From: Myxococcus sp.
GTDB taxonomy: Bacteria > Myxococcota > Myxococcia > Myxococcales > Myxococcaceae
Reading direction: 5' to 3'
Length of the DNA stretch: 33,412 nucleotides
NCBI GenBank assembly: GCA_014879945.1
Contig: JACSRE010000192.1
Coordinates: 1-33,412 of the forward strand
The notes beneath the pieces were generated by a model. It saw only the letters and a list, made by a program, of their open reading frames with translations. It made no database searches and had not been told where the DNA came from. The translations under genes were made by a program, and so were the position numbers. Of this stretch, positions 19,567 to 31,658 are shown piece by piece; the first letter of the stretch is position 1; every line of letters begins with the position of its first letter.

Positions 19567-22788
<3,222 letters not shown>

Positions 22789-25827: not shown

Positions 25828-26757
25828 TCAGATGCTCTCGTTGAGCCGATCGCCGGCGTGCACGAAGGTCTCGAGCAGGGCCTTCTGCACGTGCAGGCGG
25901 TTCTCGGCCTCGTCCCACACCGCGCTCTGAGGGCCGTCGATGACGTCGGCGCTCACCTCTTCGCCACGGTGCGCGGGCAGGCAGTGCAGGAAGATGGCGC
26001 CCGGCTTCGCCAGCTTCATCAGGGCCGCGTCGACCTGAAAGCCCGCGAGGTCGGCCAGGCGCTGCTTCGACTCGGCCTCCTGGCCCATCGAGGTCCACAC
26101 GTCGGTGATGATGACGTCGGCGCCTCTGGCGGCCTCGCGCGGGTCGTCCACCAGGTGCACGTGGCCCGGTGACCGCTTCACCACGTCGTCGGCCGGGTGG
26201 TAGCCCTTCGGCGAGGCGAGCTTGAGCTGGTAGCCGTACAGCTTGGCGGCCTCGGTGAAGCTACGGCCCATGTTGCTGGCGGTGTCGCCGATGAAGGCCA
26301 GCGTCTTGCCTTCGACGGCGCCGAGCCGCTCCTCGATGGTGAAGAGGTCGGTGAGGATCTGCACCGGGTGCCCGCCGTCGGTGAGGCCGTTGATGACCGG
26401 CACCGCGCAGTGCTTCGCGAACTCGGCGAGCCGCTCGTCTCCGAAGGTGCGCATCATCACCACGTCGCAGTAGCGGCCGGTGACGCGCGCCGTGTCGGCC
26501 AGGGGCTCACCGCGCGACATCTGGCTGTTGGCCGCCGAGAGATCGATCGCCGAGCCGCCCAGCTGCGTCATCGCCGCCTCGAACGAGAGCCGGGTGCGGG
26601 TCGAGGCCTTCTCGAAGATCATCACCAGGGTGCGGCCGGCCATGGTGCTGATGACGCGCCCCTGCTTGCGGGCCTCTTTGAGCGCGCGGGCGCGGTGGAA
26701 CAGCGCCTTGTGCTCGTCGATGGTGAGGTCGAACAACGTCAGGAAGTCGCGCTTCAT
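25828..26757 (-). CDS. argF: Ornithine carbamoyltransferase
   Basis: 309 aa, cytoplasmic trimer subunit that makes citrulline from ornithine and carbamoyl phosphate (sixth step of arginine synthesis). The carbamoyl-phosphate loop is STRTR at 52-56 within MIFEKASTRTRLSFE; HPVQ matches the HPxQ motif; the ornithine-binding signatures DVWTSMGQE and HCLPAHRGEE are intact. It is last in the minus-strand arginine cluster, 72 bases downstream of argH. AGAGGG lies just before the ATG as ribosome site. A TATAG sequence (about 26788-26792) in the gap could be a weak -10 but has no -35, so cotranscription with argH is more likely. DVWTSMGQE and length favour ornithine over putrescine or acetylornithine transcarbamylases. 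Confidence 0.95.
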   Translation of the reverse strand: MKRDFLTLFDLTIDEHKALFHRARALKEARKQGRVISTMAGRTLVMIFEKASTRTRLSFEAAMTQLGGSAIDLSAANSQMSRGEPLADTARVTGRYCDVVMMRTFGDERLAEFAKHCAVPVINGLTDGGHPVQILTDLFTIEERLGAVEGKTLAFIGDTASNMGRSFTEAAKLYGYQLKLASPKGYHPADDVVKRSPGHVHLVDDPREAARGADVIITDVWTSMGQEAESKQRLADLAGFQVDAALMKLAKPGAIFLHCLPAHRGEEVSADVIDGPQSAVWDEAENRLHVQKALLETFVHAGDRLNESI

Positions 26758-26829: not shown

Positions 26830-28275
26830 TCAGAGCGGCGCGACCGAGAGCTGCTCGAACAACGCGCCGAAGCGCGGCACGGCCTTCGACTTCTCGGCGA
26901 GCGCGCGCGCCTGAGTCGAGAGCGCCTCGAGCTGCGCCTTCACCGACGCGGGGCCCGTGCTGCCGGCGCTCTGCTTTCGCGCCACCGCGCCCGAGGCCTC
27001 GAGCACCGCGAGCGCCTCGGCGTCGATGGCCGGGTCGATCGACCTCGCCAGCTCGACCGAGGCCTTCGAGAGCGAGAGGCCCTGCTCCTGGCACTTCTTC
27101 ACCAGCGCGCCGACGTGCTTGTACGCCACGCGGAAGGCCATGCCCTTCTTCACCAGGGCCTCGGCGAGGTCGGTCGCCTGCGTGAAGCCCTCGTCGAGCC
27201 CCACCCGGCACTTCTCGGGGTGGAACGTCACGTGGGGGAGCGACAGCCGCAGCACCGACACCACCCCGTGCAGCATGGGCTTCGTCTCGAGCAGCGGGCC
27301 GCGGTCTTCCTGCAGGTCGCGGTTGTAGCCGCCGGGCAGGCCCTTCACGGTGGTGAGCAGGCCCATCAGGTTGCCGATGGCCCGGCCCGACTTGCCGCGA
27401 ATGAGCTCGAAGACGTCGGGGTTCTTCTTCTGCGGCATCATCGAGCTGCCCATCGAGATCTCTCCCGAGAGCGTGGCGAAGCCGAACTCCGACGTCGTGA
27501 AGTCGATGAGGTCGGTCGAGAGCCGGCTGGCGTGCACGAAGAAGCGCGCGGTGGCGTAGAGGTAGTCGAGGGCGAAGTCGCGGTCGCCCACGGTGTCGAG
27601 GCCGTTGGGGGTGAGGCGCGAAAAGCCCAGCAGGCTCCGGGTGATCTCCCGATCGATCGGCAGCGAGGTGCCGCTGATGGCGCCGCTGCCCAGCGCGAGC
27701 GCGTCGGCCTGGTCGAGCGCGAAGGCAAAGGCCTGCGCGTCTCGCACGAAGGCTGCACCGTACGAGGCCAGCCAGTACCCGAGCGAGATGGGCTGAGCGC
27801 GCTGCCGGTGCGTGTACGACGGCATGAGCAGCGCGCCGTCCTTCCGCGCGCGCTGAACGACCTCCTCGACGAAGGCGCAGAGGTTGGTGAGCGCGGTGGC
27901 GACCGCGTCGCGCACGTGCAGGCGCAGATCGGTGGCGACCTGATCGTTGCGGCTGCGCGCCGAGTGGAGCAGCGCGGCCGGCGCGCCGATGGTGCGGTTG
28001 AGCTCGACCTCGACCGCCATGTGCACGTCTTCTTCGTCTGGGAGCACCAGCGCGCCGGCGTCGTCGCGCCGCCACAGGTCCACCAGGCCGTCACGAATGA
28101 CGCGCGCCTCTTTGGCGGGAATCACGCCGGTGCGGCCCAGCATGGTGACGTGGGCCATCGAGCCCAGCAGATCTTCTTTGAGGAGCTGGCGATCGAGGCC
28201 CAGCGAGGTCGAGAACGCGAGGACCTCGGGCAACAGCCCCGAGCCTCCAGAGGCATCTGTCTTGGCGAGCGCCAT
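26830..28275 (-). CDS. argH: Argininosuccinate lyase
   Basis: 481 aa; splits argininosuccinate into arginine and fumarate, the last step of arginine synthesis. Fumarase/aspartase-superfamily signatures are clear: HSARSRNDQ (104-112), the base-bearing YTHRQRAQP (154-162) with H156, and the flexible serine loop GSSMMPQKKNPD (276-287). The first 15 residues lack the LWGGRF phrase common at the N-terminus of this family. A strong AAGGAG 7 bases before the ATG fixes the start. The gene begins 28 bases after the argJ-fusion stop, so it is very likely in the same transcript. No delta-crystallin or other fusion is seen. Confidence 0.95.
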   Translation of the reverse strand: MALAKTDASGGSGLLPEVLAFSTSLGLDRQLLKEDLLGSMAHVTMLGRTGVIPAKEARVIRDGLVDLWRRDDAGALVLPDEEDVHMAVEVELNRTIGAPAALLHSARSRNDQVATDLRLHVRDAVATALTNLCAFVEEVVQRARKDGALLMPSYTHRQRAQPISLGYWLASYGAAFVRDAQAFAFALDQADALALGSGAISGTSLPIDREITRSLLGFSRLTPNGLDTVGDRDFALDYLYATARFFVHASRLSTDLIDFTTSEFGFATLSGEISMGSSMMPQKKNPDVFELIRGKSGRAIGNLMGLLTTVKGLPGGYNRDLQEDRGPLLETKPMLHGVVSVLRLSLPHVTFHPEKCRVGLDEGFTQATDLAEALVKKGMAFRVAYKHVGALVKKCQEQGLSLSKASVELARSIDPAIDAEALAVLEASGAVARKQSAGSTGPASVKAQLEALSTQARALAEKSKAVPRFGALFEQLSVAPL

Positions 28276-28303: not shown

Positions 28304-30388
28304 TCAGCCCAGGGTGACGAGACTGCCGATGCCCTGCTCGGTGAAGAACTCCGCGATGATGCTGTGCGGCGTTCGGGAGTCGATGACGTGCACCCGCTCG
28401 ACGCCCCGCTCCAGCGCGGCGATGGCGAAGCGGCCCTTGCGCGCCAGGTTCGGCTTGAAGGTGTTGGCGGCGATCTTCGCGGCGAGCAAGGTGGTGGTCA
28501 GCTGGTTGAGCAGCACGTCGTCTTCGGTGAAGCCGGGCACGCCGACCAGGTACACCAGCTTGGTGGCCTTCGCGGCGACCGCGAGCTCGCTGGCCACCTG
28601 ATCGGGCTCGAGCGGCACGGTGGTGCCGTCATCGAGGAAGCCCACCGGAGACACCACCGGCACGTAGTTGCGCTGGAGGAACAGCTCGAGCAGCTCGGTG
28701 TTGATGCTGGTGACCTCGCCGCGCGGCGCGTCGACGCTCGAGTCCTTCGCCAGCACAGACTTGAGGAACGAGGCGTCCATGCCAGAGAGGCCGATGGCCT
28801 GGGTGCCCGAGCGGTTGAGGAGCGTGACGAGCTCGGTGTTGGTCTGGCCGTTGAGCACCATCTCGCGGCTGCGGGTGTCGCCCTTCGACGAGCCCTCGGG
28901 GCTCTCGCCGTGCACGATGATGGGCACCATGCCCACGGCGCGCAGCAGCGACACGTCCTGGACGATCGAGGCGCGCAGCGAGTCCTTGCCCATCGCCTGC
29001 CGGCCCAGCTTCAGCACCACCCGCTTGTCGGCGAAGCGCGAGATGTACGTCAGCGCCTCGGTGACGAGGTTCACCTTGAACTTGGGAGAGTAGTTGGTGA
29101 GGCGATCGTCCTTCGCGACGCTGCCGTCGGCCGTCGGCACCAGCAGCGAGGTGTAGTCGGCGTTGATCTTCACGTAGTCGTACGAGAGGTCGCAGCCCCA
29201 CCCCACCGACGCGTCGCTGCCGCTGCGCAGGTCGACCTCGATCAGCACCTCGGGCGCCCGCATGCGCGCGCGCAGGCCCTTGTGGCCCGGCACGCTCGGG
29301 CCTTCGTTGGCGTCGTTCGCCACCATCGGCCCCGGCGGCAAGCGGGGGTCGAACACCGGCCTGGCGTCGTAGACGCAGATGCCCTGCACCACGACCTTCG
29401 CGGCGCTGGGGTCGACGGGGAACTTCTGGCTGCCGCAGCGCGCGCCGACGGTGGCCAGAATGCGGCCCCAGTTCGGGTCGGCGCCGAAGATGGCAGCCTT
29501 CACCAGGGTGGAGCCCGCCACCGAGCGCGCGAGGTCGGTCGCGATGGCCCGAGACGGCGCGCCGGTGACGCGCACCTCGAGGAGCTTGGTCGCGCCCTCG
29601 CCGTCGCGCGCGACCTCTTTGGCCAGCTCGGCGCAGATCGACTGCAGCTGCGCCGCGAAGGCGTCGAGCTCGGGGCCGCCCTCGACGAGCTCGGGGTTGC
29701 CGAGGGCGCCGTTGGCGAGCACCAGCACCATGTCGTTGGTGCTCATGTCGTTGTCGACGGTGAGGTTGTTGAAGCTGCCGTCCATCGCGGCCGTGAGCGC
29801 GCGCTGCAGGGCCGCCGGCGCGATGGCGACGTCGGTGCAGATGAACGCGAGGGTGCTCGCAAGCTGCGGCGCGATCATGCCCGAGCCCTTGCAGATGGCG
29901 GTGAGGCGGCCCTCTTTCCGGGCGACGCGCACGGTGCGCGAGGCCACCTTGATGTGGGTGTCGGTGGTGAGGATCGCCTCGGCCGCCGTCTCGACCGCCG
30001 CCTTGAGCTGCCCCTTCAGGCGCGGGAGCGCGTCGATGATCTTCTGCTTCGGCAGGCGCTGCCCGATGACGCCGGTCGACGCCATCAGCACCGCCGCCGC
30101 GTCGAGCTCGAGCGCCTTGCCCGCCGCCGCGCACAGCTCGCTCACGTCGGCGAGCCCCTCGGGGCCGGTGAGGGCGTTGGCGTTGCCCGAGTTGATCAAC
30201 ACCGCGCGCACGCCGGTCGCCGGCAGCCGGCGCTCACAGTCGACGATGGGCGCGGCCTTGGCGGCGTTGACGGTCAAGACCGCCGCGGCCGTGCAGGGGC
30301 GCTCCGAGACGATGAGGGCCAGGTCCTTCTTGAACGGCTTGATGCCGCTGTGCAGGCCCGAGAAGGTGAAACCGCGCGCGATGGGCAT
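28304..30388 (-). CDS. argJ: ArgJ (ornithine acetyltransferase) fused to a degenerate ArgB-like amino-acid kinase domain
   Basis: 694 aa in one open frame. Residues 1-413 are ArgJ, which moves acetyl from acetylornithine to glutamate: STGVIG (104-109), TTDT (141-144), KGSGMIAP (167-174), DGEGATK (262-268), ADPNWGR (303-309) and a usual end at DLSYDYVKINADYTS. The self-cleavage site, normally Ala-Thr, reads A177-S178. Residues about 436-694 resemble arginine-sensitive acetylglutamate kinase: the N-terminal helix VTEALTYISRF, K460 of VVLKLG, GLSG, GEVTSINTELLELFL and the C-terminal TEQGIGS. However the glycine motif HGGGP is HGESP (493-497), about 28 residues with the substrate arginine (GLRVT) are missing, and the ATP-site Asn-x-Asp is changed to EPD. 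ArgJ activity is likely; kinase activity is doubtful. Own promoter-like element lies upstream. Confidence 0.9.
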   Translation of the reverse strand: MPIARGFTFSGLHSGIKPFKKDLALIVSERPCTAAAVLTVNAAKAAPIVDCERRLPATGVRAVLINSGNANALTGPEGLADVSELCAAAGKALELDAAAVLMASTGVIGQRLPKQKIIDALPRLKGQLKAAVETAAEAILTTDTHIKVASRTVRVARKEGRLTAICKGSGMIAPQLASTLAFICTDVAIAPAALQRALTAAMDGSFNNLTVDNDMSTNDMVLVLANGALGNPELVEGGPELDAFAAQLQSICAELAKEVARDGEGATKLLEVRVTGAPSRAIATDLARSVAGSTLVKAAIFGADPNWGRILATVGARCGSQKFPVDPSAAKVVVQGICVYDARPVFDPRLPPGPMVANDANEGPSVPGHKGLRARMRAPEVLIEVDLRSGSDASVGWGCDLSYDYVKINADYTSLLVPTADGSVAKDDRLTNYSPKFKVNLVTEALTYISRFADKRVVLKLGRQAMGKDSLRASIVQDVSLLRAVGMVPIIVHGESPEGSSKGDTRSREMVLNGQTNTELVTLLNRSGTQAIGLSGMDASFLKSVLAKDSSVDAPRGEVTSINTELLELFLQRNYVPVVSPVGFLDDGTTVPLEPDQVASELAVAAKATKLVYLVGVPGFTEDDVLLNQLTTTLLAAKIAANTFKPNLARKGRFAIAALERGVERVHVIDSRTPHSIIAEFFTEQGIGSLVTLG

Positions 30389-30599: not shown

Positions 30600-31622
30600 T
30601 CAGCTCAACCCCATCGTCTCGGGGAAGCCCAGCATCAGGTTGAGGTTCTGCACCGCCTGGCTCGCGGCGCCCTTCTGCAGGTTGTCGATGGCGGCGATCG
30701 ACACCACCTTGCGGCCCTTCACGCTGAAGCCGAGGTGGGTGAAGGGGGTGCTCGCCACGTCGGCGATGCGCACCGCCTCGGGTGACGGCATCAGCCTGAC
30801 CAGCGGCTCGGCCCCGTAGGCCTGCTCGAAGGCCAGCGCCACCTCGGCGCCGTCGACGCCCTCGCGCAGGTTGGCCACCGCGGTCGACAAGATGCCGCGC
30901 TTCATCGGGAGCAGGTGCGGGGTGAAGACGAGCCCCACCGGGCGACCGGCCAGGGCCGACAGCGTTTGCTCGATCTCGGGCGTGTGCTGGTGCGAGAGCA
31001 CCTTGTAGGCGCGGAAGTCAGCGTCGATCTCCATGAAGGTGAACTCCTCGCTCGCCTTGCGCCCCGCGCCCGAGACGCCTGACGCGGCGCTGATCACGAT
31101 GGAGTCGAGGTCGACCAGCCCCTGCCGCACCAGCGGCGCGACCGAGAGGGTGGCGGCGGTCGCGTAGCAGCCCGGGTTCGAGATGAAGCGCTGGCCGGCG
31201 ACCCGCTCACGGAAGAGCTCGGGCATGCCGTAGACCGCCTGCTGCAGCAGCGCGGGCTCGGGGTGGGTGAACTTGTAGAACGTCGGGTAGAGCGAGGCGT
31301 CTTGCAGGCGGAAGGTGCCCGCGAGGTCGACGACGCGCGTCTTCGGCAGCAACTTCGGCGCCAGCTCGAGCGACGTCTCGGCCGGCGTCGCGAGGAACAC
31401 CGCCTCACACTGCGCGGCGCGCTCGAGGCCCTGCTCGACCGAGACGTACTGGGTGGCGCCCTCGGTCACCCGCGCGCCGGTGCGCGTCTGCACGCTCTGG
31501 CCGACCCACCGGTCCGAGGTGAGGAAGTCGATGGTGACGCGCTCGTGCCGCAGCAGCAGCCTGGTGAGATCGAGCCCCGAGAACCCTGACGCTCCGACGA
31601 TGCCGACGCGCGCGCGTGTCAT
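30600..31622 (-). CDS. argC: N-acetyl-gamma-glutamyl-phosphate reductase
   Basis: 340 aa; NADPH-dependent reduction of acetylglutamyl phosphate to the semialdehyde (third step of arginine synthesis). The Rossmann motif is GIVGASGFSG at 7-16 and the catalytic cysteine is C152 in SNPGCYATA. The C-terminal dimer part (HQHTPEIEQ, FTPHLLPMKRGILST) is typical. The ATG at 31622 is preferred over a TTG at 31658 because a TTGAAG-N18-TATGTG element ends 6 bases before it, implying a leaderless mRNA starting at this ATG. It follows the lysR-like gene after 32 bases on the same strand and heads the argC - argJ - argH - argF group. Length and motifs fit ArgC; the LysY or aspartate-semialdehyde families are less similar. 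Confidence 0.95.
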   Translation of the reverse strand: MTRARVGIVGASGFSGLDLTRLLLRHERVTIDFLTSDRWVGQSVQTRTGARVTEGATQYVSVEQGLERAAQCEAVFLATPAETSLELAPKLLPKTRVVDLAGTFRLQDASLYPTFYKFTHPEPALLQQAVYGMPELFRERVAGQRFISNPGCYATAATLSVAPLVRQGLVDLDSIVISAASGVSGAGRKASEEFTFMEIDADFRAYKVLSHQHTPEIEQTLSALAGRPVGLVFTPHLLPMKRGILSTAVANLREGVDGAEVALAFEQAYGAEPLVRLMPSPEAVRIADVASTPFTHLGFSVKGRKVVSIAAIDNLQKGAASQAVQNLNLMLGFPETMGLS

Positions 31623-31628
31623 GGCAGG

Positions 31629-31658
31629 CACATACGCAGCGCGCGGCTTCGACTTCAA
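31629..31658 (-). promoter_or_regulatory. Candidate leaderless promoter of argC
   Basis: On the minus strand, TTGAAG (31653-31658), 18 bases, TATGTG (31629-31634), then 6 bases to the ATG. Transcription would start at the A of the start codon. The -35-like box contains the TGA stop of the lysR-like gene. It matches the element before the argJ fusion. Confidence 0.5.

Follow-up and report, generated by a model that had tools for sequence, protein, structure and literature searches.

The argJ fusion gene and its neighbourhood

The window, that is, the whole stretch of 33,412 nucleotides of Myxococcus sp. DNA analyzed here, carries on its reverse strand argC (30600-31658; TIGR01850, 359 bits), a fusion gene of argJ and an argB-derived part (28304-30388), argH (26830-28275; TIGR00838, 440 bits) and argF (25828-26757; NF001986, 413 bits), with argC upstream and argH downstream of the fusion. 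The contig that holds the arg genes has another reverse-strand frame (19567-22788, 1073 amino acids), which by eye resembles the carbamoyl-phosphate synthase large subunit and may encode it. We searched 145 genomes of the order and the 195 genomes of a phylum sample for relatives, and found the ArgJ-ArgB fusion together with its linker in 81 of the latter. The order argC-argJX-argH-argF was retained in most of the named records, whose labels were Archangium, Myxococcaceae and one Polyangiaceae metagenome genome. An assembly or contamination artefact as the source of the fusion was ruled out by this wide occurrence and conserved gene order.

The fusion gene is an ATG-initiated open frame of 694 amino acids that matched both ArgJ and AA_kinase profiles, which agrees with a preliminary description of one frame joining a full ArgJ to an ArgB-like domain. 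The ArgJ domain (residues 1-414; 29147-30388, reverse strand, like all features below) was matched over its full length by NF003802 (424.1 bits against a cut-off of 351, residues 3-414) and PF01960 (430.9 bits). It is followed by an inter-domain linker (residues 415-434; 29087-29146) with the conserved sequence GSVAKDDRLTNYSP, found across fusions, and by a putative pseudokinase domain (residues 435-694; 28307-29086) that profiles and structure comparison assign to ArgB. AA_kinase (PF00696) matched residues 455-670 with 66.6 bits, and the argB model TIGR00761 gave 115.8 bits for the fused domain, below its cut-off of 151.3. The fusion scored 87.6 bits with the classical NAGS (ArgA) model NF003641, against a cut-off of 344, and no GNAT domain was found in it by profile search. 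An ArgA origin of the domain was ruled out, as the argB profile scored higher and intact fused relatives exceeded its cut-off, with scores of up to 265 bits. A domain from a catalytic ArgB, and not from ArgA, placed on ArgJ fits the independent solution that had been suggested at first.

The model of the whole protein had a mean pLDDT of 83 and a pTM of 0.59. Its ArgJ part matched 1vz6 (VIA-align Z 44). For its kinase part the highest scores came from enzymes regulated by arginine, namely A. thaliana 2rd5 at Z 34.6 and the arginine-bound T. maritima structure 2bty at Z 34.5; N. gonorrhoeae NAGS (2r8v, Z 30.3) and E. coli NAGK (Z 29.1) scored lower. Confidence was low at residues ~402-434, around the linker, and the model thus gives no prediction of relative domain placement. 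Alignment with kinase folds and structure prediction, both proposed in the preliminary description, gave arginine-sensitive NAGKs (ArgB; T. maritima 2bty, P. aeruginosa 2buf) as the best matches in sequence and structure, and the fused domain shares with them the fold, the N-helix and the arginine-contact residues. It differs in sitting behind ArgJ, in lacking GxRVT, HGGGP, the asparagines of N-x-NAD and GGM, and in falling under the argB cut-off.

Active-site and predicted arginine-site residues of the fused domain

The substrate-site motifs of the fused domain are absent. HGESP (residues 493-497) replaces HGGGP and is followed by a deletion that takes out the GxRVT substrate hairpin (28874-28912 for motif and deletion); PLEPD (residues 592-596; 28601-28615) stands in place of N-x-N-A-D, with the Asp equivalent to D162 alone retained; PNLARK replaces GGM; and the TDVPG position reads VGVPG. 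Most of this had been read correctly from the start, including HGESP, EPD where NAD is expected, VGVPG, and the retention of the N-terminal helix VTEALTYISRF and the C-terminal arginine region. The deletion had been given as about 28 residues including the GLRVT hairpin; its location at the hairpin was right, but with T. maritima NAGK or the intact fused relatives as reference it comes to about 19 residues, and the larger figure holds only for enzymes of the P. aeruginosa type, whose extra length is not confined to this place. For R66 and N158 we assumed the roles known from E. coli NAGK. The catalytic positions K8, G11, G45, D162, G213 and K217 were numbered after PMC3329491. By alignment, the equivalents of K8, D162 and K217 are retained in the window protein as K460, D596 and K651.

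We aligned 54 fusions. In families f2 and f7 the fusion was the sole argB found (12 genomes searched with the argB model), and all 14 catalytic or substrate positions checked were intact in the nine aligned fusions. As the fusions that are the only ArgB are all intact, the ancestor was probably a bifunctional ArgJ-ArgB. Intactness at all 14 positions was seen neither in the fusions of f1, the family of the window, nor in the fusion L056. In f1 the GxRVT hairpin was absent from most fusions, N158 was lost in all, GGM and K217 were lost in several, and the K8 position was R, Q, G, S or H in several genera. In f3, where every genome searched had a second argB, G45 was changed to A and N158 to S in every aligned sequence. 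Overall, K8 was retained in 39 of the 54 fusions, and on a tree inferred solely from the ArgJ columns, its loss needs at least four changes, compared with minima of at least five for the Arg of GxRVT, five for GGM and at least three for K217. By these alignments, the fused domain has lost catalytic residues several times, by different routes, in the window's family. We also observed one genome with two ArgJ-ArgB fusions, the second of which (L069, G074:C66:326342-328279) has HVGG and has lost the hairpin.

A different picture was obtained for the arginine site. In X. campestris NAGS-K, the N-helix aromatic F35, a second aromatic position of that helix, and E280, G286 and G288 towards the end of the fold are needed for the effect of arginine (PMC2566978), and so are H268 and G287 in the C. 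glutamicum enzyme (PMC10464499). We assigned their window equivalents through spacing and alignment to the N-helix (residues 435-452; 29033-29086; helical at 435-450 in the model), the arginine-site and hexamer helix with Y448 and F452, and to the C-terminal arginine-contact segment (residues 667-688; 28325-28390; HVIDSRTPHSIIAEFFTEQGIG) with H667, E680, G686 and G688. Y448 and F452 were invariant across all 54 fusions, and the other four residues were identical in 53 of the 54 rows, i.e. in every row reaching the segment. Among 32 rows with a decayed domain, all six literature-defined arginine-contact residues were invariant, with 41 of 258 positions invariant in total (hypergeometric p = 1.2e-5), against none of the 13 alignable catalytic positions. 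Catalytic decay together with invariant arginine contacts supports the proposal, made in the preliminary description, of an arginine-sensing pseudokinase on ArgJ, in which both the 'dead' kinase and the sensing of arginine are predictions from sequence. The domain very likely has no acetylglutamate kinase activity left, and it likely binds arginine.

Within the window genus, pairwise dN/dS ranged from 0.03 to 0.21 in the kinase-like domain and from 0.18 to 0.28 in ArgJ, and in the other pairs compared the domain was also mostly slower than ArgJ, with exceptions in g4 and f3. These values, well below 1, ruled out free decay, and the altered motifs are thus not those of a dying domain. Low dN/dS could also be expected if the domain were still a kinase with reduced or altered use of its substrate, and no covering row of the window's HGESP clade has lost any of the residues equivalent to K8, D162 and K217, so that ATP binding or residual chemistry is possible there. 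However, the GxRVT hairpin is deleted, HGGGP is now HGESP, N158 has become Pro or Ala, sister genera have lost the lysines themselves, and a complete ArgB is present at another locus of the window genome, which makes a surviving kinase highly improbable. Purifying selection that covers the whole domain would also suit an oligomerisation scaffold for ArgJ, in which the N-helix and the C-terminal segment are kept for hexamer contacts and not for arginine; the N-helix links dimers in arginine-sensitive hexameric NAGKs (PMC10464499), and residues for the arginine site and for oligomerisation overlap within it. On the other hand, the equivalents of H667, E680, G686 and G688 are arginine-site residues whose substitution elsewhere abolishes or weakens the effect of arginine (PMC2566978, PMC10464499), and they are identical in every fusion covering them. 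We consider the scaffold unlikely.

A second argB and a second argJ

The presence of a true argB elsewhere in the genome had been predicted, and one further argB (P0003; C275:1636-2481, 281 amino acids) was indeed found in the window genome (7.7 Mb, 98.7% complete). It scored above the TIGR00761 cut-off, and its motifs KIGGE, HGGGP, GQRVTD, NVNAD and GGMIPK are all intact; it is itself without the N-helix, on which arginine control depends. An astD-like gene adjoins it, and this pair was present in four congeners (astD 83-87% and ArgB 85-90% identical), so the short contig C275 is part of the window genome and contamination was ruled out as the source of this 3-kb contig. No classical ArgA was found in the window genome by profile search; a match on C396 was rejected, being the GNAT part of a different protein.

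The stand-alone ArgBs that were read from the window genome and its relatives retained their catalytic motifs, less so in the divergent L116, but no N-helix precedes their first strand, and the first Gly of E-x5-G-x-G is missing. E. coli ArgB is arginine-insensitive and has no arginine site. If the stand-alone ArgBs are arginine-blind in the same way, then of the early-pathway proteins found in the window genome only the fusion would have such an arginine site.

A second argB was found in 38 of the 41 genomes with a decayed domain (three of the 38 as partial matches); in the other three (85, 88 and 98% complete) none was seen. In three genomes (G143, G161 and G162) a second argB accompanies a fused kinase that is still intact, which suggests that redundancy precedes the decay of the fused kinase; the same genomes, intact despite a second ArgB, indicate that decay is no constant sequel. 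When the link between second argB and decay was tested with phylogenetically independent contrasts, just two were available, too few for significance. In three genomes of the same family (G085, G090 and G092; 90-98% complete), profile search found neither argB nor argJ, and these organisms are possible arginine auxotrophs.

That the decayed domain is nearly always found together with an ArgB lacking an arginine site of its own would also be compatible with action in trans, in which the domain senses arginine but joins or caps the arginine-insensitive stand-alone ArgB, or another pathway enzyme, and confers arginine sensitivity on it. A precedent is the NAGS-NAGK metabolon of yeast (PMC3329491), and in the genera g8 and g9, which are without ArgJ, an unfused decayed ArgB occurs beside an intact ArgB, so that such a domain can persist without an ArgJ partner. 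This reading appears rather improbable, since the stand-alone ArgB is without the N-helix by which hexameric NAGKs interlace and lies at a different locus, whereas the cis fusion to ArgJ is retained in all decayed fusions seen. The unfused ArgB-like proteins of g8 and g9 (L195:4896-5708 in G077; L196:5359-6198 in G084) have lost the catalytic motifs (VVLLDG, HSASP or HGSGP, no GxRVT) and kept the N-helix. In G077 the gene is flanked on one side by that for N-acetylornithine carbamoyltransferase (NF003384, 422 bits) and on the other by one resembling acetylornithine deacetylase genes; an intact argB of the E. coli type is present at a separate locus.

Control in cis, by arginine, of the attached ArgJ is the leading choice that we infer. 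Nine genomes with a decayed domain have no ArgJ besides the fused one, so the ArgJ half of the fusion should be active there and the sensor would sit on a working ArgJ. The window genome is less clean, as it has a second ArgJ, and Ser takes the place of the nucleophile Thr in its fused ArgJ. The self-cleavage and nucleophile motif of the latter is A177-S178-T179 (29852-29860); according to the ArgJ alignment, fusions of the window clade have Ser178 followed by Thr179 (LASTLAF), and the remaining fusions have Thr. S178, or T179 through a shift of one residue, may still act as the nucleophile. The second, stand-alone ArgJ (L077, G000:C176:4614-5744) has the canonical ATMLAF motif, and no other arg genes were seen beside it; having no sensor, it could be a route to bypass control.

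Putative arginine control of ArgJ

Taken as a whole, the best reading, somewhat more probable than not, is that the fused domain is a pseudokinase which binds arginine and thereby places ArgJ under feedback control. On this account the gene encodes ArgJ, an ornithine acetyltransferase that may serve as acetylglutamate synthase too, and the C-terminal part of the protein goes back to a catalytic ArgB under arginine regulation. The ancestral ArgJ-ArgB fusion would have made both enzymes, and sister families still have an intact-looking version as their only ArgB. Where a second, E. coli-type ArgB without an arginine site existed, the fused kinase may have lost N-acetylglutamate binding and catalysis several times, with its arginine site retained through those losses. 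The proposed binding site for arginine has the N-helix (435-452) on one side and the last part of the C-lobe (H667, E680, G686, G688) on the other, and the bound arginine might shift the domain or its oligomer and lower the activity of the attached ArgJ, as happens via the kinase-fold domain of ArgA. We see an even chance that a bifunctional ArgJ-ArgB repeatedly, in parallel, became an arginine-inhibited ArgJ after an arginine-blind second ArgB took over catalysis.

An arginine-sensing silent kinase domain is already known in classical NAGS (ArgA), where it likewise carries the arginine site on an acetyltransferase of the same pathway. In contrast, the partner here is ArgJ, with another fold and reaction, and the domain is C-terminal and descends from ArgB fusions whose forms in relatives appear active. 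In the yeast Arg5,6/Arg2 NAGK-NAGS metabolon, an arginine site in a kinase-fold domain also coordinates two early steps, but there is no ArgJ fusion and the NAGK of yeast is an active kinase. ArgH(A) (H-NAGS) of marine gammaproteobacteria is likewise a fusion of two arginine-pathway proteins, although it adds a catalytic acetyltransferase and not a sensor (PMC1382215). The open-access literature yielded no description of ArgJ fused to ArgB or carrying a kinase-like sensor, an absence that is weak as most subscription papers lay outside this scope; matches to 'argJB' were rejected as the fusion, being mostly names of staphylococcal gene clusters.

If the proposed control is true, direct regulation of an ArgJ by arginine would be seen here for the first time, as we know of no earlier case. 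ArgJ is generally held to be unresponsive to arginine, and its control by arginine would thus alter the view of feedback in the cyclic pathway. In C. glutamicum, for example, ArgJ was unaffected by arginine (PMC3827942). The domain would also represent a second origin of an arginine-sensing pseudokinase apart from ArgA, and the unfused ArgB pseudokinases of g8 and g9 a further one. For annotation, the fused domain could be miscounted as the ArgB of the cell. Finally, the living relatives offer a natural series from an active-looking fused kinase through a partly altered to a decayed one, which opens to experiment a question that normally escapes it, namely how an enzyme turns into a pure allosteric sensor, and whether it does so only after a duplicate takes over catalysis.
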